64,000 nucleotides of DNA from Favolaschia claudopus. Taxonomy: Eukaryota > Basidiomycota > Agaricomycetes > Agaricales > Mycenaceae. The stretch's first letter is position 1. Every line of letters starts with the position of its first letter. This document shows positions 6,872 to 32,339 of the stretch, piece by piece. The notes beneath the pieces are model-generated. The model was not told where the DNA came from. It saw nothing but the letters and a program-made list of their open reading frames with translations, and ran no database searches. Location: positions 248,001-312,000 of the forward strand of contig JAWWNJ010000157.1 of assembly GCA_037176885.1 (NCBI GenBank), given 5' to 3'. The position numbers were made by a program, and so were the translations under genes.

Positions 6872-7839
6872 ATGACCTCTGAGGCAGACCTGCCCTTCGA
6901 GCTATATTCAAAGATATTTCTGCACTCTCTGCCTGCCAACGGCGTCGCACGTCCTAATCCTCACGAATCCCCCCTTCTTCTGCTCCAAATTTGCCGACGA
7001 TGGCGCACCATCGCACTGGCGACATCGAAACTTTGGGATTCACTATTCATGGAATATCGTCACGAACCCGGGTACGAAGCTGTCTTGCCTTTTGCTGTGC
7101 ACTCCACTGCTGCACTCATGGACCTGTGGTTTACCCGCTGCAATGGACACACCTTATCCCTTACCCTCCGGTCCTACAAGTACCCGGAATGGACTGCACA
7201 GCTTCCACGTGGACTGTTGGACGTTTTACAGAACAGATTTTCCCGGTGGAAACATCTAGAGATACATCTTCCTTGGCAAGACTTCTTGGATCTCGGAAAT
7301 TTCAACGGTTCCCTCTCCGCGCTCCGAAATCTTACTATCCTGGTCATTGACGGTGTAGTTCCGTCCGTCTTTGACTGCGAAACATCACTCTGTACAAAAT
7401 CCCCTCTTCTTGCGATACTTCGTTTTGGAAACCTATTCCAAAGCGTCCCGCGCCGGCTCCTCACTTCGGTGGCAGCAGCATCGTCTAATTTAACCACCTT
7501 GCAATTGGAATCCTTCGACCCATCTTGCCCTCTTGCCGTCTTGGATCTATTTCCTCGTCTTCGTCAGCTCATATTTCGTTACATTGGGCACCGATCTGAA
7601 GATGTAAATAACCATGCGCCCAAAGCCGTTGTGGCTCGTGTCCTCTCGTCTCTGTACATTGAAGGATATCTCGGCGACATGCTCCAACACATCTCCGCCC
7701 CTTCACTGCGTCATTTCGGCGTAAATGTCTACGATGAGTATAGCTCCCATGCAGCTATCTCGTTCATCTTGCGTTCACAATGCACGCTTCACCGCCTATC
7801 CCTTTGTGCGAGCACCCAGACAATATCCCCGACTCTCTT
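6872..7839 (+). pseudogene. 5' part of an F-box/LRR gene interrupted by the large element
   Basis: The frame starts MTSEADLPFELYSKIF and continues LLLQICRRWRTIALATSKLW, the classical F-box-like opening of agaricomycete proteins, followed by Leu-rich sequence. It runs into the element at 7839 and stops 21 nt later at an accidental TAA. The downstream half restarts in the same frame at 32340. Leaving out the element and one copy of the 10-bp repeat, 968 + 386 + 53 nt make 469 whole codons, the normal length of this family. The intact reading frame on both sides suggests a recent disruption. Alternative: a short protein truncated at 7861 is still made. Confidence 0.85.
7830..7839. repeat. Left copy of the 10-bp target-site duplication
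   Basis: CGACTCTCTT lies inside the F-box coding sequence (codons for T-L-L) immediately before the terminal inverted repeat. An identical copy stands at 32330-32339. The true duplication could be 8 bp (for example ACTCTCTT) with two chance matches; 8 bp would match what is known for Zisupton-type elements. Confidence 0.82.
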
Positions 7840-7844
7840 GGTTC

Positions 7845-7929
7845 TCAGTTTAAATAATTAATTCTATAAAGCTACTAGTCATAATTAAAAATCATTTTCC
7901 TTTACTACCGTAAAGGTATTTACTGCAGC
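7845..7929 (+). repeat. Left terminal inverted repeat
   Basis: The outer 20 bases match the right end at 16 of 20 positions (TCAGTT, three mismatches, ATA, one mismatch, TTAATTC). Further in, ATAATTA, AATCATTT, TTACTA and TAAAG follow in the same order as in the right end, with small gaps. Five bases separate it from the target duplication. Confidence 0.75.
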
Positions 7930-7941
7930 GCAGAGCGCTGC
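7925..7941. repeat. GC-rich hairpin at the inner edge of the left TIR
   Basis: GCAGCGC, loop AGA, GCGCTGC: a 7-bp perfect stem in otherwise AT-rich DNA. No equivalent hairpin was seen at the right end. Confidence 0.6.
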
Positions 7942-8048
7942 TACTTCCACACCAAAATCATTTCCGATCATCGACTTCAAAATCAATCTCCCAAGAATTA
8001 ATTTTGTATTGCTATGTTATCCCACTGCTGCGATTCATTTGTGTGGCT

Positions 8049-8320
8049 ACCGGGACAGAGATCAGTCCGTTGAGCTATTGAGACGAGATTGATTTTTCAT
8101 ACCTATTGCATCGGAATTGATTTCATGTGCCTATTTGAACGAGAATCATTTCGTGTACTTGACTCCGAAGGAAGAGATATCTGGGCGACCGGTACGAAAA
8201 TCAGTCCGTTGAACTACCCAGATGAAGATTGATTCTCATACCTATTGGATCGAAATTGATTTCGTCTGCCTATCTGAACGAGAATCATTTCGTATACCTC
8301 ATTCCGAAAAAGGAAATATG
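8049..8320 (+). repeat. Imperfect tandem duplication, about 139-bp unit (subterminal repeat)
   Basis: Two copies share ATCAGTCCGTTGA (starting 8061 and 8200), then GATTGATTYTCATACCTATTG, then ATTGATTTC and GAACGAGAATCATTTCGT in the same order. They form the left subterminal region of the element. Similar ATTGATTT/AATCATTT words recur inverted at the right end. Confidence 0.85.
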
Positions 8321-8477
8321 TGATGAGACCCGAAAAGGCAATTCAAGTTGGTGGGTATTGGGGCGTGAAAATGGGCATTGAAAATGGGCATAACATATAG
8401 TGCATTTCTAACTAATCAAACAGGGCTTTCTTAGGTACCTCCTGAAGGGTCATTGAGATATGGACGAGGCCTTTATT

Positions 8478-10917
8478 CTATGAGACGGACTCACCGTCAT
8501 CACCAGATCCGACTCCGGAATCTCCCCCCAGGTCATACCTGGCGGAGGCAAGCCGCTCTGCGAATCTCATTAGATGCTGGATCTCATGAGACGAAATGAA
8601 TCTTACCCTTGGGTATCTCCAGTTCTGATGATAATACGTGAGTTCCAGTTCCGGCGGCGAATCCGGCTGCTGACGGCGGGCCCTGGATCGCTTCGGAGCG
8701 CTGGTGTTGGCGTTGTCGTTCCCCGTGTCCGGCGCCTTCCTCTTCCGTCCTCGAGTCGCTTTGGGTTTCGGGGGAGTAGGAGGGGCCGGGGAGAGAGACG
8801 GTGAGCGAGGCGGCACTGGGGGCGGTGCGATGGAACCGTCGGTGGCGGGTTTCGGTGGAGTAGAGGGCGGGGGAGAAAGGGGAGACAGCGAGCGAGGTGG
8901 AGAATGAGGTGGCACTGGAGGTTCCACGATCACATCGTCGGGGGTGGGTTCATCGGCAGGCGGGGATGGGCGTGATATAGGTCCCCCGCCCCTGCCTCTC
9001 CCCCCTCGTTTGCCCCTGCCGCTGCCGCGTGTGGCCTTTGCTCGCGCACTTGGCTTGCCCCCCTCGTCTGACTTGGGCGGTGACTTGGGCGGTGGACCAT
9101 CGGGACGGGGAATGACTGGAACCCAGGGTGGAGAAAAGTCCAAGGGAGGACGCGGGGCACCGTCGGTCGTGCCCTTCTTGCCCTCGACTCCCCCACCTGC
9201 GTCTTTCCCATCGCCACCTGCACCCTCCTCCTTGTTGCCACTGCCCCCGCTTCCACCTGCGCTCTTTCCATCGTCATTGTCATCCCCTCCCGTTCTCTTC
9301 TTGCCCTCAGCTCCACCACCCGCGTGTTTCCCATCGCCGCCTGCACCCTCCTCCTTGTTGCCACTGCCCCCGCTTCCACCTGCGCTCTTTCCGTCGTCAC
9401 CGGCATCCCCCCCCGTTCTCATCTTGCCCTCGGCTCCACCGCCCGCGTCTTTCCCATCGCCACCTGCGCCCTCCTCCTTTTTCCCACTGGCCCCGCTTCC
9501 ACCTGCGCTCTTTCCATCGTCACCGTCTTCCCCTCCCGTGCTGTTGCCGTTCGATTCCGCGCAGCTCATGAAGTATTTTTCTGGGCTTGTGTTTTCTTCC
9601 TGGCACTGGAGTGCGTACTGATAGTACTCTGCCAGTTGGTCGTGCTTGGCGTAGTCTATATCGAACGCCACGCCCCCCGCGCTTGCGAGAGGGAGCATGA
9701 TCGTCTGGTCTTCGGCAGGCGCGAAGTATTCGTAGAGTAAATTCCGCATCTCGCGACGCCCCAGTCGGGACGTGTCAAGACTTGGAAGTCGCAAGTTACC
9801 GGTAGCGTCCTTTACGAGTCGATCTGCGCAGTGTGTTAGTGGCTCGAAGCTTTCAAGGCAACAGTCTCGCACGTACGCATCAGGCTATCGCGAGCCCAAT
9901 CTTCCAGGCGCGAGATGTCGTTCAGCTTCGGTAAAGGCAGGTGTGGGTCGCCTTGTGGGTTTGCAACGACACCGCTAAGAAAAGAAACTTCCGTCAGCGG
10001 GAGAAAACACTTCATACGTATGGAGACCGACCTCTGTCTCCGTAGCTTCCCTGTCGAGTCTCTGAACGCCCCGAAAACCCAGAATATACCCCGGCCGATC
10101 CCGCCTGGACCGTCTCCAAGAACCGGCTGCAGTGCGTTAACAACGATAGAGGGATAGTTGGCCTGATTCCTACACATGATCGATGTGAGCTGAGGAAGGC
10201 GGGAATATGGCAAGCAAAAGACGTACTCGAAGACTTGCCGTTCGATTTCCTCCGCAGAACTCTTCTTCTCCTTCGCCGCCGCATTATACACGTCAGCCTT
10301 CGCAGTCCAGCCAGCCTTCTCCTCCTCCTCCATCGCATCCCACCATTCCGTTGCCACCTTGTTCGACATATTCATCGCCTTCCCCTTCCCCTTCGTCTCC
10401 CCCGTCTGCTGTAAGCGTATGGTCGCCTCGTCGGTGATCAGTTGTTTCTGTTTCTCGTCTGCTCGATACATATCCAGGCCCGTCTTGGACCGAAAGCGTG
10501 AGGTGGATGGCGCGGGGTTAGCGGTTTGTGGAGGAGCTGCAGGATCCTGGCGTGTCTTCGATTTCGTGTAGTTGGCCTTGCTATTCAGCATGTTGTACAG
10601 CGTCTGCAAATCCCGTTAGCAATGTATTCTGACGAAGAAAAAATTGGGTTCTGGCCACCTACCTTCTTGAAACTTCCTACAGCGTACAACTGCTCGATGT
10701 TGAACTTGTTGTTGACCTCTTCAAACAGGTCTGCATTGCAATAATCCTTTAGATTGATTTTCGGGTCGGTCTCTTTCTCTGCTTTCTTCGCGGCGAACTT
10801 CGGTTGGAGCTCCTCCATGATGTACTTCCGGATTTCTTCAGCCGTTCCTGTGGCCTTCGTTGTAGTATAGACAGGGAGGGCACCGGGGTTGATGAGAGGT
10901 GGCGCGACGTCTGCCAT
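8478..10917 (-). CDS. Element cargo A: HMG-box-like protein with Gly-rich repeat array
   Basis: Five exons (10917-10663, 10603-10227, 10169-10032, 9974-9877, 9823-8478) give 737 aa. The N-terminus is unrecognised. Residues about 85-210 (KTGLDMYRADEKQKQL, then WWDAMEEEEKAGWTAKADVY) resemble the basic/aromatic pattern of HMG-box-like domains seen in transposon-linked mushroom proteins. A middle part (NQANYPSIVVNAL, DWARDSL) is followed by three 41-residue repeats rich in Gly, Lys, Asp and Glu, then a Pro/basic stretch with likely nuclear-localisation signals (KATRGRKRK). Two GACTTTGCGTC motifs lie 215 and 266 bp upstream of the ATG. Inference: a nuclear DNA-binding or chromatin protein; the HMG call is weak. 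Confidence 0.75.
9150..9535 (-). repeat. Three 123-bp (41-aa) coding tandem repeats
   Basis: Within cargo gene A. Each unit starts DDGKSAGGSG and runs through KEEGAGGDGK to AEGK. Units 2 and 3 are almost identical in DNA, suggesting recent expansion. Composition predicts a flexible, charged linker. Confidence 0.85.
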
Positions 10918-11131
10918 GAAGAGGGTGTATTGCGAGAGATGGCTTCCGAATATTGGTTAGAGGTGGTTATTAGAGAGAGAGGGAGAACAAAAGGCGTACC
11001 TGCTTCCACAATCGTATAATAACCAGAGCCCAATGGCCAAAGCGCAGTGGCCAAAGCGCTGGCTAAAGCGCCTCACACAATAGCGCTTGGTCCTGCGCCC
11101 GAGCCATCCATCCAAAGCGTCAAGCCTCGAG

Positions 11132-11193
11132 GACGCAAAGTCCATTCGAGAGCCCCCATCGCGGTGGCAGAGTATTGTGGTCGACGCAAAGTC
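11132..11193 (-). promoter_or_regulatory. GACTTTGCGTC motif pair upstream of cargo A
   Basis: Exact copies at 11132-11142 and 11183-11193 (GACGCAAAGTC on the plus strand, GACTTTGCGTC in the gene's direction), 51 bp apart, about 0.2 kb before the start codon of cargo A. Confidence 0.72.
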
Positions 11194-11369
11194 CTGACCG
11201 TTGGTTTGTGGTGGTGGAGGAGGAGGATGATTGGGGTGGAAGACGCTCCAGCCAAACAAATGCACACACATTCTCGTCTCGCAAATTTTAAAATCCTTCG
11301 TATTTTACATACATTGCTAGAAGAGTGCTCGTCCAAAATATTTCAAGCTGTGGTATCTATCCGGAGCAT

Positions 11370-12021
11370 CTACGGCATATATTTCTTCCAACCATTAAGT
11401 ACGGTGACCCCTTCGTATCGCACCAAAACTCGACTCGTCTCGGCAAACACGAAAGCAGGGTCGTCCCAGAAGACGCGTTCCCATGCGAAGGTGCCGTCGA
11501 TGTGAGGCACACAGTGCTCCACCGCACGCTGCTCTTCAAAACCCCGCTTCCCAAATGGTATTCTATATCTGCTCAGCCTCACCTCTCCACCGACGTCAGG
11601 GGAAACTGGACATTCAATGGGGGCCAAACCGTCCTGTAAATTATTGTGAGTAAGAACGCTATGAGAGCAGTCGACGAGATATACGTACCGCGAGCCATGC
11701 CACAACACGCACTTTGGGAATATCCTTCTCGGTCTCGTCAAGGAGTTTAGCGCGTTTTCGGCGGGGTGCACCTGTGGGGGAGGCGCTCCGAAGTCGAGGA
11801 GGGGCTCCAGGGGAGAGGCTTCCAGGCATTCGACGAGATTGAAGGTTTCTTCGCCGAGCGCTGCCAGAGGTTCTGGCTTTCCGTGGTGGCGGGCCCGACG
11901 GTGAGAGGCTTCGATCCCGCTGGGCGAGGTGGCGCTTACGACGCGGGGGTGGGCCTGGAGGAGGGAGGCTCGGTTGGCGATGGCGAGGAGTGTGGGGAGT
12001 ATGGAGCGCTTCTTTCACCAT
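11370..12021 (-). CDS. Element cargo B: basic/Pro-rich protein, paralogue of cargo D
   Basis: Two exons (12021-11689, 11633-11370), phase-0 intron, 198 aa. The N-terminal 100 residues are Pro/Arg/Ser-rich with repeated SLSPSGPPPRK-like units and clear basic clusters (PRRKRAK), suggesting nuclear location and disorder. The C-terminal 90 residues form a conserved domain with a pattern WERVFWDD...SRVLVRYEGV...GW. Cargo D has the same pattern (WSRVKWDS...SRILLRYNGV...DW), and its intron sits at the same place and phase. I do not recognise the domain. Two one-mismatch copies of the shared motif lie 400 and 469 bp upstream. Confidence 0.72.
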
Positions 12022-12420
12022 GTTCGTTTGAGGAGAGGAAGTCGTTACAAGTGGCCTTTTATAGTGAGACCCGTCAAAGCGTATTCAAGCAGGGAATGGT
12101 CCAAGCACAATAGCTCACCTTACCAACGAACCTGGTTGGACCAGGAAACCAGATAAGCTTGGGTCAGGGCTTTGCCACGCCGCAGGTGAGTTCGAGCTCA
12201 TGTCAAGAAGGGCACCCACTCACCCACATTCCACCCGACTATTGCCCGAGAATAGACTCGATCAGCTTGTATAGCAGCGCATTCCCGACCATCTCAGTAT
12301 GCTGTTGACAAGAAGCACAAAGAATTTCAATCGAAGAAAGTGTCCTTGAGAAGAAATGACACCGACCCGCACCGTGACCATGGCACCGTCGTACCGCAAG
12401 GATTGGGCTTCCACAGGTCG

Positions 12421-12500
12421 GACGCACAGTCCTCGACATGCATGGAAGCTAAAAGACGGTGGCGGAAGCAAGCCTCGACGCCAGTGTCGGACGCATAGTC
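12421..12500 (-). promoter_or_regulatory. Motif pair (one-mismatch variants) upstream of cargo B
   Basis: GACGCACAGTC (12421-12431) and GACGCATAGTC (12490-12500), both followed by CTCGACA, 69 bp apart, in the same orientation as the other minus-strand copies. Confidence 0.58.
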
Positions 12501-12686
12501 CTCGACAAATTTGAAGATGACGGTGAAAGACAGGATGAGTCGATTGTTGACATCCGTTTGGCAGAAGTGATTGCGAGGGCAGAGATATTCACCAGAGCTT
12601 GAGGGTAGCTTGCGGTATAATTCGACTAATTTCCTTAGTTTAAGCTCCCTGTACGGTCTCCGGTCGTCCCTTCCACGCCATTCACC

Positions 12687-13418
12687 GGTATCGCAGTATC
12701 GAAGAAAAGAGGTAGAATTAACGGGAGCGACAATAAGTACATTATTGGGAAAGATACATCGATTACAACGGCTCATTAAAGTACTCGCTCAATCATCTAA
12801 GACAGTCAGAATATTGTGTCAGAGAATGGCTGAGTATCAATAAAAAGACCTTACCCAAATCTTCGGCGAAGGAGTTCTCAGACTCCGCCAATTTCTGCAC
12901 GCGCTTTGCTTCGTGATCCTGCTTCTTTTCCTCCTTCGTGAGATCGTCTTGTATCAGCTTCGGGAGACCGTTCTTGGCAGCCATGCAGCGATTACCGAGC
13001 TCCGAATACATAGCGCCTTGCTTCTCCGCATATGCCCTTCGCCCCGGCTGTTGGGGACGACAATCTTCCGCAAGCGCCTTCCAAATCTTCGCCTGAGTTT
13101 CAAACGAACGTAGGGTACGGCTGAATTCCTGCTCCAGGATCTCGCGCTCTTCCAACGCTCTGTCGCGAATGGCTCGAACGCGAAACCATCGTACCCGATT
13201 CACTGATAGGACTTCTGATGAGATTGACGACATTAGTGAAACAATCTACTTACTTTCTTGGATCCATTCGTTTGTCTCGTTGTCGGACAGATTTGACGGG
13301 CGTCCAACGCGCCAAAACCATGGCTCCGCCTCCTTGGTTTGCCCTGGTTTTTGCGACAGCCCAGACTTGCCTTTGAGTTGCTCTCGTATCAACGGTTGTA
13401 AAGCTTGATCATCTCGCG
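12687..13418 (+). repeat. Left arm of a perfect 732-bp inverted repeat
   Basis: Identical, as far as read, to the reverse complement of 14265-14996. The arm carries the C-terminal coding end of the KDZ transposase (minus strand here, stop at 12789-12791) and its 3' flank. The ends are sharp: outside GGTATCGC (12687) and ATCTCGCG (13418) the sequences diverge at once. Confidence 0.92.
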
Positions 13419-14894
13419 CAAGCTCTCTCTCCCGACTATATCGACGGAACGAGATTGAAATCAGGCGAAGGGAAGCAGACTTCGACGGCTGTAATGAGAT
13501 GATGGCGCCGGAGCTGGTGGCTGAAAGGAAGAAAATGCCACTGACCCCGGCCGTCTTTGACGCCGATCCGAAATTTCGTGAGACATTCAGTGACTATCTG
13601 CACAAGTGGATGAATTTATTTCGTTGATAGGCCCACCTACACATGCTGCCGCCTATGAGAAACTGGTTGCTCAAGAACAGGCGGCTAAAAGGGAGGGTCT
13701 AGCTAATTATTCGGGTGATTCGGAGCTAATCGCGATAGCCTTGATGGTCGAGAACTCACAGTAAGTCGTCGTTTGTCACTGTCTCGTCCGAATCCGCTAA
13801 TTGTGATGAAAGGCTGGACTTCAATCGCACAGTCAAAAAGAAAACACCAGAGGAGGTCCAAGCTCAACGCGTCCAACTGATAGAATCCCTGTCAGATTTA
13901 CGCCTACGTCAAGTACAGCGCATTCCCGAATTCCAACCGCTCCTCCCCGACATGGACGTCGACAGCCCTGAGACACAGCCTCTGTTCCTACCGTCCCAAT
14001 TCGCTGAGAACCAACGCAGCGAACTCAGGTTAACGCCACTGGCCCAGATCGAATACAAGTTACGAGAGGGCGCTGCATACGAATATCTCGACAAGGTCCG
14101 CGACGCCATCACGCTCTACAACAAATTCAGAAAGGGGAACATCGGGCTGGGAGGCCGAGCGAAAACCCGCGCAGCTAACTATATCCATACGCTCTGGAGC
14201 GAGGTGACAACGGCTTGGCACGCGTACGAGGTTCATCGCAAGGCTTTACTTGTCTTGGGGCTTTCGCGAGATGATCAAGCTTTACAACCGTTGATACGAG
14301 AGCAACTCAAAGGCAAGTCTGGGCTGTCGCAAAAACCAGGGCAAACCAAGGAGGCGGAGCCATGGTTTTGGCGCGTTGGACGCCCGTCAAATCTGTCCGA
14401 CAACGAGACAAACGAATGGATCCAAGAAAGTAAGTAGATTGTTTCACTAATGTCGTCAATCTCATCAGAAGTCCTATCAGTGAATCGGGTACGATGGTTT
14501 CGCGTTCGAGCCATTCGCGACAGAGCGTTGGAAGAGCGCGAGATCCTGGAGCAGGAATTCAGCCGTACCCTACGTTCGTTTGAAACTCAGGCGAAGATTT
14601 GGAAGGCGCTTGCGGAAGATTGTCGTCCCCAACAGCCGGGGCGAAGGGCATATGCGGAGAAGCAAGGCGCTATGTATTCGGAGCTCGGTAATCGCTGCAT
14701 GGCTGCCAAGAACGGTCTCCCGAAGCTGATACAAGACGATCTCACGAAGGAGGAAAAGAAGCAGGATCACGAAGCAAAGCGCGTGCAGAAATTGGCGGAG
14801 TCTGAGAACTCCTTCGCCGAAGATTTGGGTAAGGTCTTTTTATTGATACTCAGCCATTCTCTGACACAATATTCTGACTGTCTTAGATGATTGA
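13419..14894 (+). pseudogene. KDZ transposase, detached C-terminal part
   Basis: On the plus strand, opposite to the N-terminal half. It encodes the tail typical of KDZ transposases: RRREADFDGC at the start, a coiled region (EEVQAQRVQLIESLSDLRL, then PEFQPLLPDM), a helical stretch with TRAANYIHTLWSEV, and a charged C-terminus ending LDD at 14894, with introns after ENSQ, IQE and EDL. A one-base deletion near 13605 (AAGTG where AAGGTG is expected) shifts the frame within HKVDEFISL, so the piece cannot be read through. Without the catalytic half it is non-functional. The tail is duplicated in inverse in the left arm. Confidence 0.8.
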
Positions 14895-14996
14895 GCGAGT
14901 ACTTTAATGAGCCGTTGTAATCGATGTATCTTTCCCAATAATGTACTTATTGTCGCTCCCGTTAATTCTACCTCTTTTCTTCGATACTGCGATACC
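14265..14996 (-). repeat. Right arm of the perfect 732-bp inverted repeat
   Basis: Reverse complement of 12687-13418; spacer 846 bp. Its outer end at 14996 is exactly where the N-terminal half of the KDZ transposase breaks off. Identity of the arms implies a recent event or gene conversion; an assembly artefact must be excluded. Confidence 0.92.
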
Positions 14997-16751
14997 TTTC
15001 GGAACAGCGCCCTCAACCCTCTGACCAATGGGCACCATACTATGGAACCGTTCCTCAATGCGTGAGACGAAATTGATTTTGTATTGGCACCATATATCGT
15101 AGGTCAACAAGATGAAGCGTTGCTTCGCAGCTTCGCTCATGGCCTGTATCACAGCGTAATCTGTGTTCGCAAAACTGCCCCAAGATCAGGAATTGTCCCA
15201 ACGGATTCAACAAAACGAGTACGTACGCTTCTCCTTTCTTCAAATCAACCATCCCATTTGGCATGTAAAATCCATGTCGGGCGCATTGGACCGCGACGAC
15301 ACCAGACACCTCCACATTCTTGAATTTGGCGAAGTTTTGTAGTCTTGCCGCTCTGAAATGAGAGCACGTACTGACCTTATTGCATATTGGCTTCAGCGCA
15401 AGTATACATCCGTGACAAACCTCGCTTACCGTCTCAGGCTCGGGCCTCACAACGCTCAGATACTCTTCAAACTCTTTTGTTTCAACGAAATAACCGTGGC
15501 CGTCATTGAGAGCGAAGTCGTCGGGGTCCTGGCGACTTTGCTTGTTCTTCTTTTGAAGCTTGAAATTGCCATCCACAGAGAGATAGAGCGTGAATTTGTG
15601 CCTGCGACAGTCAGATTTAGGTTCATACGGCTGAGTAGACGACTAACTTTTCTGTCTCCAACGCCGAAAGCATCACATCCTCGTCGACATTGAACCCAAC
15701 TTCAGGACACGCCGGACATCGAACGGTGAGTGAGCCTGGACGTCGCCACGGCCAATGAACGTCGATATTGTGAGCCTGACCCGAACGCCTCGCTAGCGCC
15801 AAAAACCTCCATACACGGTACGCGCAGATGAATTCACGGCAGCGATTCTGGGGGTTAATCAGCGTCTTGAAGGATAGCGCTTAAGCAATAGTACTCACCG
15901 CTGCATCCTGGGGAAATGCACCATCCGTGAGCTTTGCTAATGACCGAACGAAGTCGTAGGCCGTGATTTTGGATGTGAGGGAGCAAACGTGAAACTGACG
16001 CAGCACTGTGAACGTGAATGCGGTGGAGGGGATCCTCCAAGTCGCCGGAAAGAGTTGAATGTTCAGCAGCTGTTCCCATTCCGGCACGTTTGCATTGTTC
16101 CGTTGGCAAGCGCAAAAGTGCACTCTGATCGTATGAAAGCCGTTATGATCTAAGACTACGACATCGCGCGAAACAACACTTGTCTCCGAAACGTGGCGAC
16201 AGGGTAGCGGTCCAGAATCAAGGTCCGTCTGTACCACCAGCCCCAGACGTTTCAAAGACGTTCGCGTGAAGTGAGTTCCAGTCCACTCATCGATATGGTG
16301 CAAGGGGTGATCATAATGCTTCTCTACGGTACAATGAGCGCACATCATCGGACTCTTGTGGCACATGTCCGAGCAGCGGAATCTGGCTGGTTTGCCGCAC
16401 CGACAATCCCTCCCGATATGCGGATGATAGTGGCGAGTTTCGATGATAGCGTTCTGGATTTCGTCAAACAGCTTAGCAGCCTCCGACATCCCGACCGAGG
16501 CGCCCTGAAACCGGTAAGAAATCATCACGGTGGGAAATGCACTGACATACCTGTTTCCGCGGAGGTGGCGGCGGTGGAGGAGGTGGAGCGGGAGCGGGAG
16601 CGGGAGGCGCCGAGGAGAGAACCGGCTCCTGGGTTTGCTTGAGAAAAGTCCGCCTGCGTCGCAATCGACGTTCGTTGTCTGAGTCCGACTCCGAGTCGTC
16701 GAGGTGCTCCTTCAAAGACGCGTTTGCGATCTTCACTCTTTTGCGAGACAT
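14997..16751 (-). pseudogene. KDZ-family transposase, N-terminal and partial catalytic region
   Basis: Start MSRKRVKIANAS, then an acidic/basic stretch and a Pro run. After the first intron comes the CxC2-type cysteine cluster (DCRCGKPARFRC, MCAHC, H-rich) known to be associated with KDZ transposases, and then the diagnostic LFPATWRIPSTAFTFTVL segment. The transposase core shows SVDGNFKL with the first catalytic Asp, CARHGFYMPNGMVDL, and TYDIWCQY with the second Asp. It breaks at 14997 after VEGAVPK, before the segment that should hold the catalytic Glu. At least five introns separate the exons. The protein is therefore catalytically incomplete. Two shared motifs lie 98 and 122 bp upstream of the ATG. 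Confidence 0.85.
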
Positions 16752-16848
16752 CTGTCAGCGTGGTCGTTAGTAATCGTCAATTGAGATACACGTCTACACT
16801 CGCCGGTGGTCTACTAGCACCCTCCGGGCTCTGGCGAAGGGAAGTACT

Positions 16849-16883
16849 GACGCAAAGTCATGCAATAACGCCGACGCAAAGTC
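16849..16883 (-). promoter_or_regulatory. Motif pair upstream of the KDZ transposase
   Basis: Exact GACGCAAAGTC at 16849-16859 and 16873-16883, 24 bp apart, about 0.1 kb before the transposase start. This ties the transposase to the cargo genes by a common upstream element. Confidence 0.72.
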
Positions 16884-21034: not shown

Positions 21035-21062
21035 AAAGGGCGTGGGTGGTGGGGTTAACGTA

Positions 21063-21100
21063 GACGCTAAGTCCAAAGCGTTCTGTCTGGACGCAAAGTC
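21063..21100 (-). promoter_or_regulatory. Motif pair upstream of cargo E
   Basis: GACGCTAAGTC (21063-21073, one mismatch) and exact GACGCAAAGTC (21090-21100), 27 bp apart. Confidence 0.7.
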
Positions 21101-23733: not shown

Positions 23734-24337
23734 TGTTGAACAGGGTAAGGATGGGGAGAATACCTCTTACCATGCCGGTTTATGTATCACATCGATTTCG
23801 CTCAAATTGGGATTGGTGTATTGTTAGCAGTGTCTTCCTTTGCGCACTCGAGCCGGGTGTTCAAACTAAATGCGAAACGAGGCCTTATTGTTTTTTCTGT
23901 TGTTCTTTGAACGAACGGTCTCGCTTCCGATCGTCCTAGATTCACAACTCAAGACTTTTGCAGTGAGCACGATGATCACTGTTGTTTCATCCTAGATCGG
24001 GAGTGTCTCACATTTGTTCACAGAGATCGGTGGAGAGTCCGTGGATCAGAAGCTGGAACACCGCCGGTTCAAGCATTGTTTCTGCCAAAAAAGGCATCAA
24101 TAAATTGTCGGGGCAGACATTCAAAGACCTTACCTCTTGTTTAGTCCCAATGCAGCAGGTCTTCCGTTGGCTCGCTTGTGCGTCGACACATTTTGTCAGT
24201 GCAATCAGTCGGATGTCTCATAAACCATCAGGGTCATTGTCTCGGCTCGATAAGGAAAAAATGAATTGCGAGCCGGAACGCGATCACATGTGCAACTTTG
24301 CGACAGAATAGTATAATGAGGGTACAGTAAACTGCCA

Positions 24338-25141
24338 CTACGGTAACTCCAAATTCAGTACCCAGTCCTCCAGCATTCGCCGAGTCAATACCGCTGCTCG
24401 ACAAATCAACATATACTCAATGCAACGAGCATGCGAACTCACCGTCATAATAACTCGTGCGCCCGTTGAATTTGTAACTTGCAAAGCGGACGACCATCGG
24501 AAAGACGGGATTAATGTCGTGGGGAAGGGCGGTTACAGCCTCAAAGCCTTCATTCATCAACTTAAATTGGCGAACTGAAACTTTGTCAAAATGCTGTATG
24601 TACGAGCACATGAATTTAAACGCACGGGTGCTTTCCACTTGCACCTGCCTGGGGTCTTCTGCGGGGTAAGGATTGTCGATAGTGAAAATCAAAGGCGACG
24701 AGAACAGGGAAGAAAGTGCGTCGGTATCATTCGGAAAGCGACAGGCGAGATCCGCCTCGACAGACGCGTGGAAAGCCATGCGATTGAAATGCGAGTCCCA
24801 GCCGTCGCCCCGCGAGAACGAGAACCCGAATTCCCGCTTGAATGTTCGGGCTGCAGCATGATAAGCAAAAAGAGAGGATGAGTTGGAAGCGGACATACCG
24901 AGATCCAGATATCTAGCCATAGCCGAGTCATCATGGTGGTCATCTTCCACTGCGGCATTGTTAGTGAAAAAATCAAGCCACGGATTGAAGCACAAGTACC
25001 TGCTGCGTCCCATGCGAATTCCATCTCTGAGATACGCTTGCGCGGGGCTGTTTTTGTGTGCGGCTGATCAATCTTGCGTCTCGTCGTCGTGCGGCGACGA
25101 CGTCGATCTCGGCGGGGTTTCTTGGAATTGTCTTTGGACAT
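24338..25141 (-). CDS. Element cargo G: basic N-terminus plus unrecognised domain, 218 aa
   Basis: Four exons (25141-25000, 24949-24899, 24850-24443, 24393-24338). The N-terminus is extremely basic (KKPRRDRRRRRTTTRRK), a nuclear-localisation or DNA-binding tail. After DDHHDDSAMARYLDL comes a globular domain (ARTFKREFGFSFSRGDGW, FMCSYIQHFDKVSVRQFKL, PMVVRFASYKF) ending LEDWVLNLELP. Size and order of elements resemble cargo J (222 aa) and the end of cargo F, but the similarity is weak. Two motif copies lie 162 and 210 bp upstream. Confidence 0.7.
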
Positions 25142-25302
25142 GGGTCGCTGGGTAGTGGGGGATGGTAAGCGGCTATGTAATTGATATATATACGAGATTC
25201 GTCACCGTAGTGGACGCAACAATTAGACGATTTCAGCGGCGGAGTTTGCCCCCAGAAACAAGTCGATCGTTCGCCTGATACAGGACATGGGTGGTTAACC
25301 TG

Positions 25303-25361
25303 GACGCAAAGTCGACAGGTAGCCAAGCGCATAGCTACGGCTTTATGCTGGACGCCAAGTC
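25303..25361 (-). promoter_or_regulatory. Motif pair upstream of cargo G
   Basis: Exact GACGCAAAGTC (25303-25313) and GACGCCAAGTC (25351-25361, one mismatch), 48 bp apart, same orientation as for the other minus-strand genes. Confidence 0.7.
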
Positions 25362-25519
25362 CACAGCTTCGGGAGGATGGGAGGAGAGTAGACGCAGAGG
25401 AAGAGGTCCAGGGATGAAGAGAATGAGTTACGGCATTTGTTGATATTTGGATCACACGCCAAATCACACACATTTCTCTCACAGCCAACTCACCGCCTAA
25501 TTGTCGTTCATTGAACTTC

Positions 25520-25584
25520 GACTTCGCGTCGGTTCAGAATGCGCTGGACTTTGTGTCGCGTATTCAAGGTGTTGACTCAGCGTC
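25520..25584 (+). promoter_or_regulatory. Motif triplet facing the plus strand
   Basis: GACTTCGCGTC (25520), GACTTTGTGTC (25547) and GACTCAGCGTC (25574), evenly 27 bp apart, carrying one, one and two mismatches. The orientation flips relative to the pair 160 bp to the left, consistent with a divergent promoter serving the plus-strand genes that follow. Confidence 0.62.
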
Positions 25585-26011
25585 GCTCCTCTCGTCTGCC
25601 CTGAAGAAACCAGCGCCCAACGCGAGGAAGTTGTCCCAATCGCGAAAAGTAAAGTTCTGCTACTCCGAGTCTTGCAAACTAAACTAAGTACACTTAGAAG
25701 TGCTGGTGAAACAACTTTGGTGGCGGAAAAAATTAATAGCGATTGAACCTCTGGGACTACCACTTGGCTTCGCGGACACATCATGTAAAACTACTGATCA
25801 TATCGACGTGGAACGTACTTGACGAGCGCCCGACAGGTGTTTTCGCCGGGCGCGCGACCTGACACAGCGAGTAAGTGCGCCGCTTTCTTCCGATTCCACT
25901 CTGAAGTTATGTTAGCGTTGGACAGCGCAGAATTCGAATACCAGACCAGACAGTGAGTCATCCAAAAAATTATCGTAGCGCCTGCCGGCGCCCATTTCCT
26001 TCACACTGGAA

Positions 26012-26369
26012 GTGATATTACTCATCGCCCACTCGGTCTCGCAAGCGTATCCATCGCACGGCGGCCACGGGAATCTGACGGGGGGTTTACTGACTATTTC
26101 TTGTCAGGGTCGGTTCAACGATCAAGTGAAAGCAGTACTCACAAGATTTGAAAGGCACCGAAAGACCCAAAGCGCGTATGGACCATGGCCTGTCAACGAA
26201 CAGGTACGTCTTAATCAAGCGTGCTTGTTCCTCGACGTTACAGTCTGAGGATGAATTAGCGTCGCCGACACTCGGGAAAACTTGGGTATACCTCGTTCCA
26301 CCGGCAAAGCACGAGGGAACCCAGGAGGCAACTCAGTGTACTTCACAAGCACACGACAGGGATTACTGA
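26012..26369 (+). CDS. Probable small cargo gene (5' end unresolved)
   Basis: Two coding pieces, up to 26203 and 26244-26369, join in phase 0 by a GT-AG intron: FNDQVKAVLTRFERHRK ... GPWPVNEQ, then SEDELASPTLGKTWVYLV and a charged tail to the stop at 26369. I do not recognise it. The first exon, perhaps from an ATG near 25909 (MLALDSAEFEYQT), could not be joined in phase. It lies downstream of the plus-oriented motif triplet. Confidence 0.4.
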
Positions 26370-26848
26370 GGCTATCCATGAATGTTGCTGGGGGCTCGAG
26401 GATAATAAGATGTAGGCGCTCATTCGGATTCGACTGGTCCACCTTTTGTATTTCTCAAAGGAATCATAATTTGGCGAGATAATGACATGAGTGATCCTCG
26501 GAACAAGTCGATCGACGATCGGGTGTATTGTCTTGCGTGGTCCAAGCGCAAGCTAGTGTCGGCGGAACCGGTCAACCGGAGCGGAAATCATCTGATTCCT
26601 GATCTGGCTCTTGACCTTCTTGGTTTCTTGTTCTGTTATCTTCTTTTCTTGTTGTACCATCCCGACATGGAGTGTCCATACCGCCCCGGAGCGCATTATT
26701 GTTGACTGAGCTGAAGGGTCCGAGCGAGGTATCGAATGGGTCGCTTATTTATCGTGCGTCTTGCTTCCGATTTCCACAATTCTACCCGCTTTCTGAACTA
26801 TCGAAAATTCCTCGCTGGACGCCGCACACTCTCACAAACAACTTCGAC

Positions 26849-27786
26849 ATGCCTAAAGACTTGCTTCCGCGTCGTTTGCCTACCAGCTGGGTGGGCACTG
26901 AGCGTCGTGGTCAAGGTTTTCGCAACGACGACTATCTGGACTTCGATGCTCCAATATGTGCAATGCTTTGGACGAAGGTGCGGACATGCTCTTTCTATAT
27001 CAACTTCTTCGTACTGTCGTCTTTAACACTTGAGCTTGATAGAATGACGAGAAGCCAACTCAGGCTGTTGTCTACGCCCACCTCGACATGCGCGTCAGCC
27101 TTTCAGCCAACAAACCGATCCTCGCAGAGGCTGGATTCAAGAAAACCAATGACGGCGTGTTCGAGTTCTATCAGACGGTTGATGGCGTTGGGCGCTGGAT
27201 CTCGGGTGTATGGGATACGCCCATTCGCACGACCGCAGCGGGCGACATGCTGTTGCTCGCATACCCTGATCTGACGAGCTTAAAGGACTTCGGCGAGCAT
27301 GAACCCCATGCTAGAAACGATTTTCCTGTTGCTTCTTCGCGACTTTATAACACATTCGCCTCTCAGACGCTTCTCCAGAGATATACCCAGGCAAATCCCT
27401 GCGCGGCGCTCCTCAACTTCAACATTCCTGTTACGCTGGTGGGCTATAAAGCAGTACGTCCCAACCACCAGTTACTTAAGTCTTTGACTTCTCATCACAT
27501 CATTTAGGATGATACTAAGCCTTTCCGTGGGGTTGTTTTCCCTCGTGCCGATTTACGTGTTCGCTTCAGAGACAACGCCAAGGCACTCGAGGGCTTGGGT
27601 ATACGCGATACGACCCATCCAAATCTGGATTGCTACTATCGCATTGGAGGACTGCCCATGTGGGTTCCCTGTAATTGGGATACGCCTTTGCGAGTTTCGG
27701 GGGTTGGACATGGGTTGCTGATTCGGGATAGCGGAGTTCGGGATCTCAAAGATTTGGAGTATTACGCGCCTGCCTTGGAAATGTAG
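26849..27786 (+). CDS. Element cargo H: protein with two tandem copies of one domain
   Basis: Three exons (26849-26977, 27043-27453, 27508-27786), phase-0 introns, 272 aa. Start MPKDLLPRRLPTSWVG. Two halves of about 100 residues repeat the same plan: first AVVYAHLDMRVSL ... FEFYQTVDGVGRW ... WDTPIR ... LTSLKDF; second GVVFPRADLRVRF ... DCYYRIGGLPMWV ... WDTPLR ... VRDLKDL. This is an internal duplication of a domain I do not recognise. No signal peptide; no catalytic motif evident. The motif triplet at 25520-25584 is 1.3 kb upstream and may serve this gene or the small one before it. Confidence 0.68.
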
Positions 27787-27947
27787 CATACATATGTACT
27801 TGTACTACAATAAACTAGAACTTCTTCTCTATTTTCAACCGTACCTGAAAGTGTGAACGCGAAATCGGACGCGAGGGACAAGTTCACGTGATCGCGAGGC
27901 GTGATGATGTAATCAATATCAGCTTGTCTCCTCCTCCCATCGTCCTC

Positions 27948-28020
27948 GACTTTGCGTCAGACGCTGGCCTCCTGGGTGAGACTTTGCGTCCGCCTGCACT
28001 ATCTAGCTTGACTATGCGTC
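27948..28020 (+). promoter_or_regulatory. Motif triplet upstream of cargo I
   Basis: Exact GACTTTGCGTC at 27948-27958 and 27980-27990, and GACTATGCGTC at 28010-28020, spaced 32 and 30 bp, 113-185 bp before the ATG at 28133. Confidence 0.73.
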
Positions 28021-28132
28021 TGCTACCGGATAACCCCGCTTCCACCGCCGCCGACCCAGCGCCATGCCCTTCTGTCAACTTTCGGCAAGGCCTGCAAGAT
28101 CGATCAGCCTTATTGTTGCGCTCAAGCGATAA

Positions 28133-28882
28133 ATGGCGCCGTCTGTTCGCGCAAAACTCTCAATCATGCCTGAACCGGATCCTCCCCATCTTCACAAGAC
28201 CTCAACCTCACCGACGCCGCCAATTGCTCAGGCTGACGAGGCATCGTCTGGTGCGTTTCCTTACGATTTTCGAAGACATCCCGAACTTAATATATTTCGC
28301 CGGATATGTCGCAGATAAACCGACGCTGTCGCCCGCACAGGGAAATCCTCCTGCTGACGGTTATTACGGGGAAAGGTTGGCACATCTCGATTACTCCCTG
28401 TACGTTTATGTTCAAACAACCCGTTTGCGCGGCTGATTTTTCCCTTGAAAGCGCCCGCGCGCACCCGCTCGATACTCCAGGTGTCACTTTCACGTACGAG
28501 ACCGCCTGTCGGCGTCTGTCCAACGACACCGGCTTCGCTACCCACGAAACTACGAATACAGGGGGATGCAATTTGAAGATTGCCCACAGCCAGCGCTCGA
28601 TGTACGCGGCCTGTATATTCTCATCTGACATTGAAGCTAATTAATTCTTAGCCCTTCTAATATTGGAAGATTCGGGTGCGCCGCCCATGCTTTTCCTCCT
28701 CGCCCCACTGACCCGTCCTCGCCAGTCTCGTCACTTACAACTGCAATTGTCGCTACCGTCCTGAGGATTCCGTTGGGGAATCGGAACCCCTCGACATCGA
28801 CTACAGCGACCTTCCGGACCTGGTTGACGTTGGGCCAGCCTATGCTGAGGATGAATTGTCGGAATCAATGGGAGGGCAATAA
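28133..28882 (+). CDS. Element cargo I: small unrecognised protein, 177 aa
   Basis: Five exons (28133-28250, 28315-28399, 28452-28601, 28652-28675, 28726-28882), one of only 24 nt. The start MAPSVRAKLSIMPEPDPPH is followed by a Ser/Pro/Thr-rich part, then RAHPLDTPGVTFTYETACRR and a segment with YNCNCRYR. The C-terminus is strongly acidic (LDIDYSDLPDLVDVG). Composition suggests a disordered adaptor with one small Cys-containing module. An alternative reading retains the sequence around 28360-28450 as exon, giving a longer middle part. Confidence 0.58.
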
Positions 28883-29111
28883 ATAGCTTTTTTTTTGTTT
28901 CATGAATTGTCGATGTTGCTCGTGTTATTACAACGACGGCTTCTGTTTAGTAACAACTCCACCTGTGTACTGTGTTCGCTGCCAGATCCACTGCGCCTTG
29001 GTCTTCGAAATAATCAGTGTATCGTTCTGGTCGCTCTGTCTCAGCTTTGTTGACGATCGAAAGATCAGCTGTCAAGGATAACAATTGAGTGGTGACTGTT
29101 CACAGATATAA

Positions 29112-30041
29112 ATGGAATCGCCAGTTTCAAAGTTCTGGGCACGGCTTGGGAACTCGATGTATGAGTGTACGCGTCGTAAGCTCGTTTCCTTGTTAACAGA
29201 TTTTGCTCTGATATTCTTTCACTAGAAACTAGGTCCCAGACTAAAACCCAAACCTTGTTGCTGAGGGAGGCTCCAGCCGGTGCGTTGCTTGTTGATATCA
29301 ATGCACAAAAATGTGAATACGATTTAATGTTAGCTGCCATCCCAAATCGAAAGCTCGCCAACAGTTTGGGCAAGGGCGATTTCCGGCGTTCCGTCGGCGC
29401 TTTGCCAAGTGCGTCCCATTATCAACCCTGATGTAGCTCTTAATTTGACGATTCAAAATCCCAGAGAAATTGTTGTCGGGCTCGGTTCATGCGACTCCGG
29501 CTTCACCCACTCGCAAATTGATTCGAATATGTTTATTCTTCGAGGTATAGGCACATTTTTATGCCAATGTGCGAATCTCATCGGCGCAGGCAAATCAAGA
29601 TCCTATCATAATCAATGACTGGGTCCCAGACGTCGAGCGCTTTGAATTCAAGAAACACAAAGCGTTCCTTTACAGTAATGCCACGCCAAACGTAGCGAAC
29701 GGTGGTAACCCCACTGTTTATGTTCGCTTCTCTCCTCATTTTGGTGATTTCAAGACTGTCGAAGACTCTCGTGTCTTTGGGAAGACGAATATCTCGGAAT
29801 CAGGGGACACAGTCATCTATCGCGAGCAACACCTGGTCGATGGGGACTGTCCAGGGCTGAAACGCTTGAAGACCGAAGTTCATATGCTGAGCCAGAGCGG
29901 TAAGATTGAACTCATCTCCTGTACTTATCGATTTCACTGATTGATTTCGCTATAGGCTCAGCCGAGTATCCCTCGTTTACCCCGTCGCCATCTGCTAGAT
30001 CTCGGGCTCTCAAGCGAAAACGGGTTGAGATGGATTCATGA
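29112..30041 (+). CDS. Element cargo J: relative of the cargo F C-terminal domain, 222 aa
   Basis: Six exons (29112-29175, 29226-29279, 29334-29408, 29465-29544, 29590-29899, 29956-30041). The core aligns with cargo F without gaps over ICLFFEANQDPII versus IVVYAYSNEAPLI, then FEF/FDF, and then GDTVIYREQHLVDGDCPG versus GNIVLYREENLTDDECPG. Both end in a basic patch, here ALKRKRVEMDS. The family is unknown to me. The location is probably nuclear because of the basic tail. No shared motif was found within 250 bp upstream. Confidence 0.65.
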
Positions 30042-30564
30042 TAAGTACTTATGACATGTATCCTACATTCTGAAACTATATACTGCGGTCGCTCACTATG
30101 TACTCATTATACCAAAAAATGTTTGTTTTTAAGATCGAGCGAGCGATCGTGCTCGCGAATCGGGTCGAGGTAATTATCTACATTGAGTATCGACTCGGCC
30201 GTTATCAAAATGAAAACTTACCTGCCGACTTTGCTATGATTCGGTTCGAAGAAAATCTCCACATACCTCGGGCTTGGATGCCTGTCGGGCCTTGAGCCGG
30301 TAAGTTTTTTGTGTACTGGTTATTATGTTAACCACTCACAGGTGATTGGTGTATTGCACGAGACGCTCCGATCGTCTGGTGCGTCATGCTATCGAGCCTG
30401 GTGTAGGTTCATTTAGCAGTTACAATTGGGCTGTCGCAAGACGAACTGACCGCATGCATATATACGTAGACTAAGTTTAGTCAGCTGCTACAGGAGTTTT
30501 GCTACACAAAATAGTATCTGAAACTTGTGAGTGCATGAAAACGAGCTACTGAAAGGTTGAGAAC
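30042..30564. other. Intergenic region inside the element
   Basis: No gene supported between cargo J and the convergent cargo K. Confidence 0.5.
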
Positions 30565-31151
30565 TCACCTAGTAATGGGTTGCGCAGTATCTACCAAGAC
30601 CTCTTCAACTTCTCTGCAGACGTCTGCGATCCCGAAGGCCCAAAAGAATTCGTGGTGCCAATGCCCACACCAGCAGAAGAAATCCTCCACCCCAAGCCCA
30701 CGCGAGCGAAGGCGAGCGTGGATGAGCGCCTCTGAAAAATGGGTCAGTAAAACGAAGAAAACAAAAGAACTGCTTACCTGTAAGTTTGACGCACGAGGTA
30801 GGCCAGCAGTACAGCCAATTGATGGCCCCGCACTTCTTGTACTGACGCATACGTCGTTGTAGATTATCGGTAAGGCCGTACTTGATTTGGGAGTGCCAGA
30901 GTCCCGTATTCCAGTCGAACACCCAGCGTTGAAGGCAGTAAATGTACCCGTCGCGATCGTGGTACAGATTCTCTTTGAGCAAGGAGTTGGCGCGTTCGTT
31001 CGGCGGCAGACGAGCACTGCTACTGGTAAGTGACACCCGACGCGACGCCGCCGACTTACACAGTGTTGCGACGGTGTACTATTTCGGCGTCCGAGCCGGG
31101 AGGGCGTTGTGGGTACGAAGGGTCGACGGGACGAGAGTATGTGTTAGGCAT
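30565..31151 (-). CDS. Element cargo K: T5orf172/MUG113-type GIY-YIG domain protein
   Basis: Three exons (31151-31060, 31022-30778, 30731-30565) give 167 aa. After a short Pro-rich N-terminus (MPNTYSRPVDPSYPQRP), the domain shows DGYIYCLQRW (GIY-like strand), QIKYGL (YIG-like strand), NLQRRMRQYKKCG with the conserved Arg, TEALIHARLRSRGLG with the conserved Glu, and CWCGHWHHEFF. This order is that of the T5orf172/MUG113 branch of the GIY-YIG nuclease superfamily. Known members are putative endonucleases in phages, mobile elements and fungi. Inference: a DNA-cleaving or nicking accessory of the element, with the key residues present. Confidence 0.72.
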
Positions 31152-31491
31152 GCTGGGGTGGTGGTGGTAGATGATCAAGAGAGATATCATCACTGCGAGA
31201 ATAAGGTCAGGCTTTTATAGTCAGGTGCCGGGAACCTTCAGGACGAAAAAAATATGTTAATTATATCAGGATATCTCAATCACGGGACCGCGTACTTCAC
31301 CGTGACTTCAACACGGCATTTGCTGTGCTGGCAATCATCCGGATCAGTGGCGCCTTTAAAGCGACAAAGCCTTTTGACCAGCACAATCTCCCTCTTGTCT
31401 CTTACCCTCATCTTCGCCACTCGACCTTTATTCCCTTCTCTCGACACTCTGCCATTGGACCTCAAACTATGTCTAGTTCTTCCCCACACTT

Positions 31492-31602
31492 GACTTTGCG
31501 TCGGTGTAGCGTAGGAGATCATGTTTGTCCTCCCGGGGACTTGGTGCCACACGTATCCTTGACTTTGCGTCGGCGATGCTAATAAGGAGGCTTGAAGTCG
31601 TG
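31492..31602 (+). promoter_or_regulatory. Motif cluster near the right end of the element
   Basis: Exact GACTTTGCGTC at 31492-31502 and 31561-31571, and a two-mismatch copy GACTGTGTGTC at 31592-31602. They point rightward, away from cargo K. Either orientation is not essential, or a plus-strand gene once followed and is lost. Confidence 0.58.
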
Positions 31603-31739
31603 ACTGTGTGTCAGGCATCTATCGTGGAAAGAGGATTGCATGGGGGAGAATGCCTGGTGAGTGGCGCACATTTCTTTGTCCATATTCTGCTCGCTCGCAT
31701 TTCAATTTTCGCTGCCTTACTGTTAATTTTGGCATCGCT

Positions 31740-32235
31740 CGGCGACGGTCCTCGGAGAGGCACGGAATTAATTTTGACTGGCTATTGGACTCTGCCGGTG
31801 AACTGTCCGCGCGACTGGCGCGAGGTTGATTTTCTGGCTGAATTAAGACTACTCAACTCAGCAGTGATTTTCGGTGACTGATTTTGATTCCGGGGGCGAA
31901 ATCAATTCTGCTGATTTGAGATTAAATTTGGCTGCCTATTGAACTCTGCCGGTGAGTGCCCATTCGAGTTTGATTCTTCGCTGGCTAACTTTGATTTTAG
32001 ATACGAAATTAATTTTGACCGAACTACTCGACTGATTTGGTGAGTCACCCACTTGAGATTGATTTTCACTCGTGTTCCGTTGATGACTTTGTTTGATTCT
32101 CGTTGATTCCGTCTCAAGATCTCAAGATTAATTCCGTCTCAAGATTAATTTCACACTCGTAAGTAATTTCTTCTCAACGAAATTGATTCGAACTGACTAA
32201 TTCTCTGTGGTTATTTGATACATGTAAAGTACTTG
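31740..32235 (-). repeat. Right subterminal repeats
   Basis: Degenerate repeats built on AAATTAATTTTG/GAAATCAATT words and a twice-repeated GGCTRYTATTGRACTCTGCCGGTGA-type block (near 31779 and 31939). On the reverse strand they resemble the ATTGATTTC words of the left subterminal region. Confidence 0.7.
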
Positions 32236-32321
32236 AATGTAGTAGACTAGCTTTAGAATAGTAATGAGAAATGATTCCGTCGTAAACCTAATTATCAGTG
32301 GGAATTAACTATACCAACTGA
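32236..32321 (-). repeat. Right terminal inverted repeat
   Basis: The reverse complement begins TCAGTTGGTATAGTTAATTC and continues ATAATTA, AATCATTT, TTACTA, TAAAG in the same order as the left end. Eight bases separate it from the right target duplication. Confidence 0.75.
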
Positions 32322-32329
32322 TACGACTG

Positions 32330-32339
32330 CGACTCTCTT
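32330..32339. repeat. Right copy of the 10-bp target-site duplication
   Basis: CGACTCTCTT, identical to 7830-7839. The F-box reading frame (T-L-L-R-L-G) runs through it and onward. Confidence 0.82.

Follow-up and report, generated by a model that had tools for sequence, protein, structure and literature searches.

A 24.5-kb KDZ transposon carrying multiple genes in an F-box gene of Favolaschia claudopus, with a palindromic motif upstream of many of its genes

Introduction

Among fungi, Ascomycota are the group best known for large transposons that carry genes. Here we analyze a 64,000-nucleotide stretch of the genome of the mushroom Favolaschia claudopus (contig C157, positions 248001-312000; hereafter the window), in which an F-box gene is interrupted by an element that is, very probably, a cut-and-paste transposon of the KDZ superfamily, 24.5 kb long and carrying its transposase and about eleven other genes (designated by letters in Table 1) as one unit.

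Several described elements are close enough for comparison. KDZ1 of Cryptococcus is about 11 kb long, with 241-bp repeats, a CxC1 domain and 8-bp target duplications (PMC12810828). As described there, it shares with the F. claudopus element the combination of a KDZ core and a CxC zinc cluster, terminal inverted repeats and 8-bp duplications, whereas the F. claudopus element is much larger (24.5 kb, about a dozen genes), has weaker repeats of ~85 bp and yields CxC2 as its best match. Giant KDZ elements have been reported from algae, reaching up to 30.3 kb in Ectocarpus and 31.7 kb in Chlamydomonas, where the element is active (PMC12477816). Like the element analyzed here, these span tens of kilobases and contain nested insertions, and the giant families carry accessory genes; unlike it, they are algal and encode other genes, and the available part of that account does not mention a common promoter motif. 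Agaricomycete KDZ elements with accessory genes are represented by the TET/JBP-carrying Kyakuja and Zisupton elements of mushrooms (PMC12730594). In these, the accessory gene encodes a dioxygenase, whereas no such gene of the F. claudopus element is recognized by Pfam, the products of E, A, H and I being without a match. Thus, giant gene-carrying KDZ elements are already known, and size and cargo alone are not new (PMC12477816, PMC12730594). The Starships are likewise large cargo-carrying transposons of fungi but, in the available descriptions, belong to Ascomycetes (Pezizomycotina) and are classed by their tyrosine recombinase. Outside this circle, the plant VANDAL elements, which are of the MuDR type (PMC12730594), encode the anti-silencing protein VANC, for which binding to a motif has been proven (PMC5735166).

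We found no description in the literature of the gene set or the motif reported below. The element is a fully bounded case from a mushroom: it is inserted at two sites, each of which has an empty counterpart, and one of its cargo gene families, that of E, has members in many Mycena genomes. In addition, a common promoter motif whose cores differ between related lineages renders testable the set-wise control of genes by a multi-gene DNA transposon, as well as the possible evolution of self-recognizing anti-silencing systems in fungal elements.

Insertion into the F-box gene and a second copy of the element

The assembly consists of 264,566,041 bases in 460 contigs and has been described as a 265-Mb genome in which 86.8% of the BUSCO genes are duplicated (PMC10905254). 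Because this duplication level is high, related copies can be alleles as well as paralogues, and the two are kept unseparated here. The initial annotation of the window proposed that a 24.5-kb transposon lies within an F-box gene whose frame resumes on the far side, and the sequence bears this out: the F-box coding sequence reaches the first of two copies of CGACTCTCTT (positions 7830-7839 and 32330-32339) and continues in frame past the second. Because CGACTCTCTT occurs 806 times in the genome, the direct repeat alone is no proof of insertion; the proof is provided by empty sites. Sites paralogous to the F-box flank exist at three places, C126:406253, C157:118599 and C76:959766 (99, 98 and 97% identity, respectively, over 960 bp); these are the kind of uninterrupted relatives with a single target that the annotation had suggested seeking as a check. 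In all three, the left and right flanks overlap by exactly one CGACTCTCTT, and in the C126 paralogue the F-box frame runs unbroken through the target site. The likeness to these segments reaches several kilobases or more on both sides of the insertion; because similarity to uninterrupted segments thus extends over both flanks, the insertion is younger than the segment duplications. The paralogous or allelic segments around the F-box gene are large and mostly 80-97% identical (C157:112000-140000, C126:399000-414000 and C76:947000-968000), and one of them is located on the same contig, 136 kb away.

Genome searches seeded with the left (641 bp) and right (730 bp) ends of the element each gave a single additional hit, and both hits are on contig C178 (98% and 93% identity). 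Hence the searches located the ends in only two places in the genome, with the same genes bracketed in both, which settles the question, raised at the outset, of whether ends and cargo co-occur. The C178 copy, 53,990 bp long and in the orientation inverse to that of the window copy, shares the termini of the latter, with TTGGTTCTCAG at its start and GATACGACTG at its end, but has an 8-bp duplication of its own, GCAGCCCC, on either side. An uninterrupted paralogue of this second site, at C178:256901-257600, has a single GCAGCCCC and flanks that overlap by exactly 8 bp; a copy of the site on C17 is also uninterrupted, within one or two bases at the alignment ends, with GCAGCCCC itself absent there. 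Comparison of the two copies also shows that the target duplication in the F-box gene, originally given as 10 bp, is 8 bp long (CGACTCTC): because the C178 copy starts with the same TTGGTTCTCAG but has GCAGCCCC as its flank, the last TT of the supposed 10 bp are the first two bases of the element, and their match to the next bases of the target is a coincidence. The two insertions have identical ends and differ in their 8-bp duplications, and each site has uninterrupted relatives, which shows that the whole unit is mobile.

The imperfect terminal inverted repeats noticed in the initial annotation are present in both copies; they are ~85 bp long, spanning roughly positions 8 to 92 at each end. 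Their alignment score is 37 in the window copy, a value reached by 2 of 1000 randomly paired element segments, and 61 in the C178 copy, reached by none of 1000. With stricter scoring, applied to the window copy alone, the score was 26 over 120 bp, a value that 2 of 500 random pairs attained, and no better than chance over 600 bp.

Compared with the window copy, the C178 copy contains 32.6 kb of extra sequence (C178:153810-186434, loci L033-L037) with two further KDZ cores and another CxC2 domain, that is, KDZ material inside a KDZ element. Identity between the copies is uneven, at 97% around gene E and 82% at the right end, as if parts had been exchanged between elements.

Because KDZ elements receive nested insertions, as the two extra KDZ cores on C178 illustrate, and identity ranges from 82 to 97% along the element, the locus might be a patchwork of a small KDZ element and host genes trapped by nested insertions, with no mobile unit. 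We regard this as highly improbable because the second insertion contradicts it: the same ends enclose the same gene order at both sites, which are unrelated, have their own 8-bp duplications and are each matched by uninterrupted paralogues. In addition, distant relatives repeatedly combine E with CxC2 and, in single cases, with H or I (see below).

Transposase and classification

Of the 31 open reading frames (ORFs) and gene models of the element that we scanned against Pfam with curated cut-offs, only three had matches above cut-off. All three are pieces of the transposase, with matches to the CxC2 domain (PF18803, E 3.5e-30) and the KDZ core (PF18758, E 2e-18 and 8e-7, on two pieces of one gene); the eleven other gene models had no match above cut-off. 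The KDZ assignment made at the outset holds, and four traits of the superfamily are present: the PF18758 core, a preceding CxC cluster, an 8-bp duplication (in two copies) and imperfect inverted repeats. Kyakuja elements generate 7-bp duplications, have CA..TG ends and lack inverted repeats (PMC12730594); with its 8-bp duplication, TT..TG ends and inverted repeats, the F. claudopus element does not fit this sub-lineage. Its 8-bp duplication and inverted repeats agree with the Zisupton sub-lineage. No tyrosine recombinase (the captain, located at one end of Starships) was matched by Pfam among the 31 sequences, which do not include every ORF. Maverick/Polinton elements produce 6-bp duplications and encode a protein-primed polymerase, an integrase and capsid proteins; with its 8-bp duplication and the lack of such domains among the 31 scanned sequences, the F. 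claudopus element does not fit this class.

In the window copy, a perfect inverted repeat of 737 nt splits the transposase gene. The C-terminal part of the gene is in inverted orientation, and a stretch of about 262 bp, present between the core pieces in the C178 copy, is missing. In the C178 copy, the compared core stretch, which probably contains an intron, has two stops. A transcript spanning the 737-nt repeat could form a long hairpin. Because its transposase gene is rearranged, the window copy is probably not self-mobilizing at present. The initial proposal of one very large element with about a dozen genes is supported: the same genes lie between the same ends at two sites. In the scenario that we favor, a KDZ superfamily element inserted into the F-box gene, duplicating 8 bp of its target; judging by the family, a KDZ transposase acting on the ends would have moved the element, and the window copy either would have been rearranged after landing or would have been moved by the transposase of another copy.

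A gene family linked to the KDZ lineage

Database searches with the product of gene E produced 85 matches, and all 78 for which an organism is named come from Mycena or Favolaschia (Mycenaceae); the alignment omitted 14 of the 85 homologues, which were short or partial. Besides the two copies of the element, the F. claudopus genome contains 34 E loci (merged by hand from 70 matches). We compared their locations with those of CxC2 domains detected using the element's own CxC2 region as the query (140 of 354 candidates scored, giving 139 other matches, two of them from one place on C157). Among the matches listed, a related CxC2 domain is present within 10 kb of 14 of the 34 other E loci, compared with 0.39 expected (p about 2e-17). 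Nine of the 12 best-scoring CxC2 matches are adjacent to E, against 6 of the other 127. The arrangement seen in the window, with the transposase downstream of E and in the same orientation, recurs at nine of the 14 linked loci; at the remaining five the transposase is located upstream on the opposite strand. Because 14 of the 34 other E loci adjoin related CxC2 sequences, against 0.4 expected, E belongs to this KDZ lineage and is not chance cargo. Two other cargo genes were found close to E elsewhere. The single match of H outside both copies, on C19, is ~7 kb from an E gene, and the matches of I at one other place, C107, are ~2.6 kb from the E gene with the highest score in comparison with that of the element. 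On contig C183, an E gene adjoins a 721-aa ORF (L062:1439-3604) that appears transposase-like by eye and gives no match in Pfam.

A palindromic motif upstream of element genes

The most common 11-mer of the element, after masking of repeats, is GACGCAAAGTC, with arms GAC and GTC and 12 exact copies. The window contains 20 copies with no more than one mismatch, every one of them inside the element; with two mismatches allowed the picture is less clean (27 of 41). Shuffled sequences contained 0.6 motifs on average, with a maximum of 4 in 200. On C178, all 18 motif copies in 80 kb lie inside the element; a search of the 32.6 kb of extra sequence in that copy found none. The motifs are arranged in twos and threes before seven genes (A, B, the transposase gene, D, E, H and J), at distances of 26 to 469 bp from the start codons assigned to these genes, in plus orientation before the minus-strand genes and in minus orientation before the plus-strand gene J (Table 1). 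In the whole genome (264.6 Mb), only seven pairs of motifs no more than 30 bp apart were detected. The window copy has three of them, the C178 copy two, and C3 and C88 one each; the reversed control pattern gave no close pair at all. The pairs at C3:3136576 and C88:144933 (L066 and L067) are related to each other and their surroundings are unlike the window. Single motifs are not confined to the element: 153 kb of other DNA from this genome contains six that deviate at no more than one position.

The palindrome also precedes relatives of E. In 17.7 kb of sequence upstream of 23 other E genes, there are 25 occurrences of GAC-N5-GTC, whereas the frequency in 120 kb of control DNA predicts 1.5. 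Twelve of these stretches contain GAC-N5-GTC, eight contain arrays of palindromes with GCGAA or GCAAA cores, and three contain neither; they are not independent, given that seven share one related GCGAA array and that L050 and L069, as well as L040 and L044, look similar. The arms in the GCGAA/GCAAA arrays include TGGC/GCCA, CAAC/GTTG and CGAGC/GCTCG. On the strand opposite to E, the core next to the gene is GCAAA in the window element and on C183, and GCGAA (with some ACGAA and ACAAA) in the seven related stretches. It is GCTAA on C107 and at C157:178270 and TTCGA on C6 and C88 (plus TTTCA on C6), and both TTGAA and CTGAA occur on C29; some other arrays are mixed. The clearest sign of a concerted change of the core is C183, where all five palindromes have GCAAA, against mostly GCGAA in the seven relatives with like arms; with mixed cores in other arrays, this is one clear contrast, and the evidence is thin.

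Several explanations of the motif have to be weighed. It could be the site of an ordinary host regulator that drives the E family, inherited by the element along with E, a serious possibility that in our view stops short of being probable. Such a regulator would fit the occurrence of the palindrome before E relatives across the genome, the motif pairs on C3 and C88, in places unlike the element, and the single motifs in other DNA. On the other side, the motif in the element also stands before A, B, the transposase gene, D, H and J, and the differences in the core between lineages are hard to reconcile with a fixed host regulator.

Alternatively, the motif might work as a DNA or RNA hairpin, with the arms enclosing a 5-nt loop, rather than as a double-stranded site for a dimer. 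The arms of the arrays vary and yet stay complementary around a GCGAA or GCAAA loop, and TCCCGAC/GTCGGGA and ATCGAC/GTCGAT occur in one promoter, a hint of hairpin formation. We nevertheless consider the hairpin rather unlikely, as the arms are GAC/GTC throughout the window element, the enrichment of a fourth complementary pair is only mild (11 of 26, p 0.04) and many of the arrays are related by descent; for the window element, a duplex site for a dimeric protein would be an equally good explanation.

The placement, orientation and density of the motif, and its change between lineages, lead us to infer a single trans-acting factor, of the element or of the host, that would bind the motif and either switch on the genes of the element or shield them from silencing as a set. 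A more specific proposal, which is tentative and which we consider unlikely as a whole, is that Mycenaceae harbor a lineage of giant KDZ elements with a regulon of its own, in which an element protein, E and the CxC2 transposase being the candidates, would recognize the palindromic and possibly hairpin-forming motif and activate or unsilence the genes, with motif core and protein changing together, as a fungal counterpart of VANC. One trait typical of the VANC system, a dense element-specific short motif, is present in the F. claudopus element. As in the VANDAL elements, the motif is dense in non-coding parts, has one orientation per cluster and differs between related elements (PMC5735166). 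In contrast to VANC, a proven binding protein (PMC5735166), the factor acting at the F. claudopus motif is putative, and there is thin evidence that the motif units change together.

Coding potential and constraint

Genes A, E and I were modeled by splicing with a simple script, and the C178 proteins in the database resemble the models (A, 728 versus 769 aa, 87% identity; E, 674 versus 684 aa, 97%; I, 272 aa in both, 94%). Proteins A and I have no database matches outside the F. claudopus genome and, within this genome, A has no relatives beyond the two copies. The ratio of nonsynonymous to synonymous substitution rates (dN/dS) between the copies indicates constraint on E (0.13, p 5e-8), I (0.21, p 2e-6) and the CxC2 region (0.26, p 1e-4), and weak constraint on the transposase core (0.30, p 0.015).

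Several observations weigh against the reading of the locus as a mobile unit with its own lineage-specific genes and common motif. Transposition itself was not observed, and only two copies of the unit were found in the genome. Twenty of the 34 other E loci have no CxC2 match within 10 kb in the incomplete list of matches, and a generic list of KDZ cores (149 places of 699 candidates) placed none of the 34 within 15 kb of a core, the opposite of the result of the lineage-specific CxC2 search. No motif lies near F, G, I, K or L, and two of the motif clusters could not be clearly assigned to a gene. No significant constraint was detected on A (exons 1-2 only), H or the C-terminus of the transposase (dN/dS 0.80, 0.74 and 0.65, respectively), and H has a stop in the C178 copy, so that part of the cargo may be decaying.

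Table 1. Features of the element and its insertion site (positions in the window)
Feature	Position	Strand	Remarks
Interrupted F-box gene, 5' part	6872..7837	+	F-box-like match below Pfam cut-off
Left target-site duplication	7830..7837		CGACTCTC, 8 bp
Transposon	7838..32329		24,492 bp; begins TTGGTTCTCAG, ends GATACGACTG; limits from empty sites and identical termini of second copy
Left imperfect terminal inverted repeat	7845..7927		starts 7 bp inside end
Gene A	8478..10917	-	769 aa model; three 41-aa internal repeats
Motif pair	11132..11193	+	GACGCAAAGTC; 215 and 266 bp before gene A
Gene B	11370..12021	-	model
Motif pair	12421..12500	+	GACGCACAGTC, GACGCATAGTC; 400 and 469 bp before gene B
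Inverted repeat, left arm	12687..13423		737 nt; 100% complementary; duplicate of transposase 3' end
Transposase, C-terminal part	13424..14890	+	inverted relative to N-terminal part; colinear and uninverted in C178 copy
Inverted repeat, right arm	14260..14996		737 nt
KDZ transposase gene, N-terminal part	14904..16751	-	Pfam: CxC2 cluster 15881-16504, first KDZ core part 14904-15642
Motif pair	16849..16883	+	98 and 122 bp before transposase gene
Gene D	17768..18524	-	reading frames; start by eye
Three motifs	18550..18611	+	26 to 77 bp before gene D
Gene E	18872..21034	-	684 aa model, 3 exons; recurrent accessory gene of KDZ lineage
Motif pair	21063..21100	+	29 and 56 bp before gene E
Gene F	21394..22441	-	reading frames; start by eye; distant paralogue of K
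Gene G	22800..23733	-	reading frames only; limits approximate
Gene H	24417..25141	-	start by eye; relative on C19 next to E paralogue
Motif pair	25303..25361	+	162 and 210 bp before gene H
Motif pair	25520..25557	-	no clear gene
Gene I	26849..27786	+	272 aa, 3 exons; relative on C107 next to E paralogue
Three motifs	27948..28020	-	146 to 208 bp before gene J
Gene J	28166..28882	+	reading frames; limits approximate
Gene K	29551..30041	+	reading frames
Gene L	30565..31151	-	weak T5orf172 match below cut-off
Motif pair near right end	31492..31571	-	no clear gene
Right imperfect terminal inverted repeat	32238..32321		starts 8 bp inside end
Right target-site duplication	32330..32337		CGACTCTC, 8 bp
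Interrupted F-box gene, 3' part	32338..32733	+	open frame

Some further features of the coding regions were observed. In a two-sequence comparison, F (21737-22090) and K (29551-29940) show 26% identity over 93 residues and look like distant paralogues, so that the element may hold two members of one family. The sequence CTCACCGTCAT occurs four times in the element (8490, 20960, 22501 and 24438), at some sites seemingly at the exon end of a minus-strand gene, like a common splice-donor context. Finally, the 41-residue units of gene A derive from three 123-bp tandem repeats at window positions 9168-9545.

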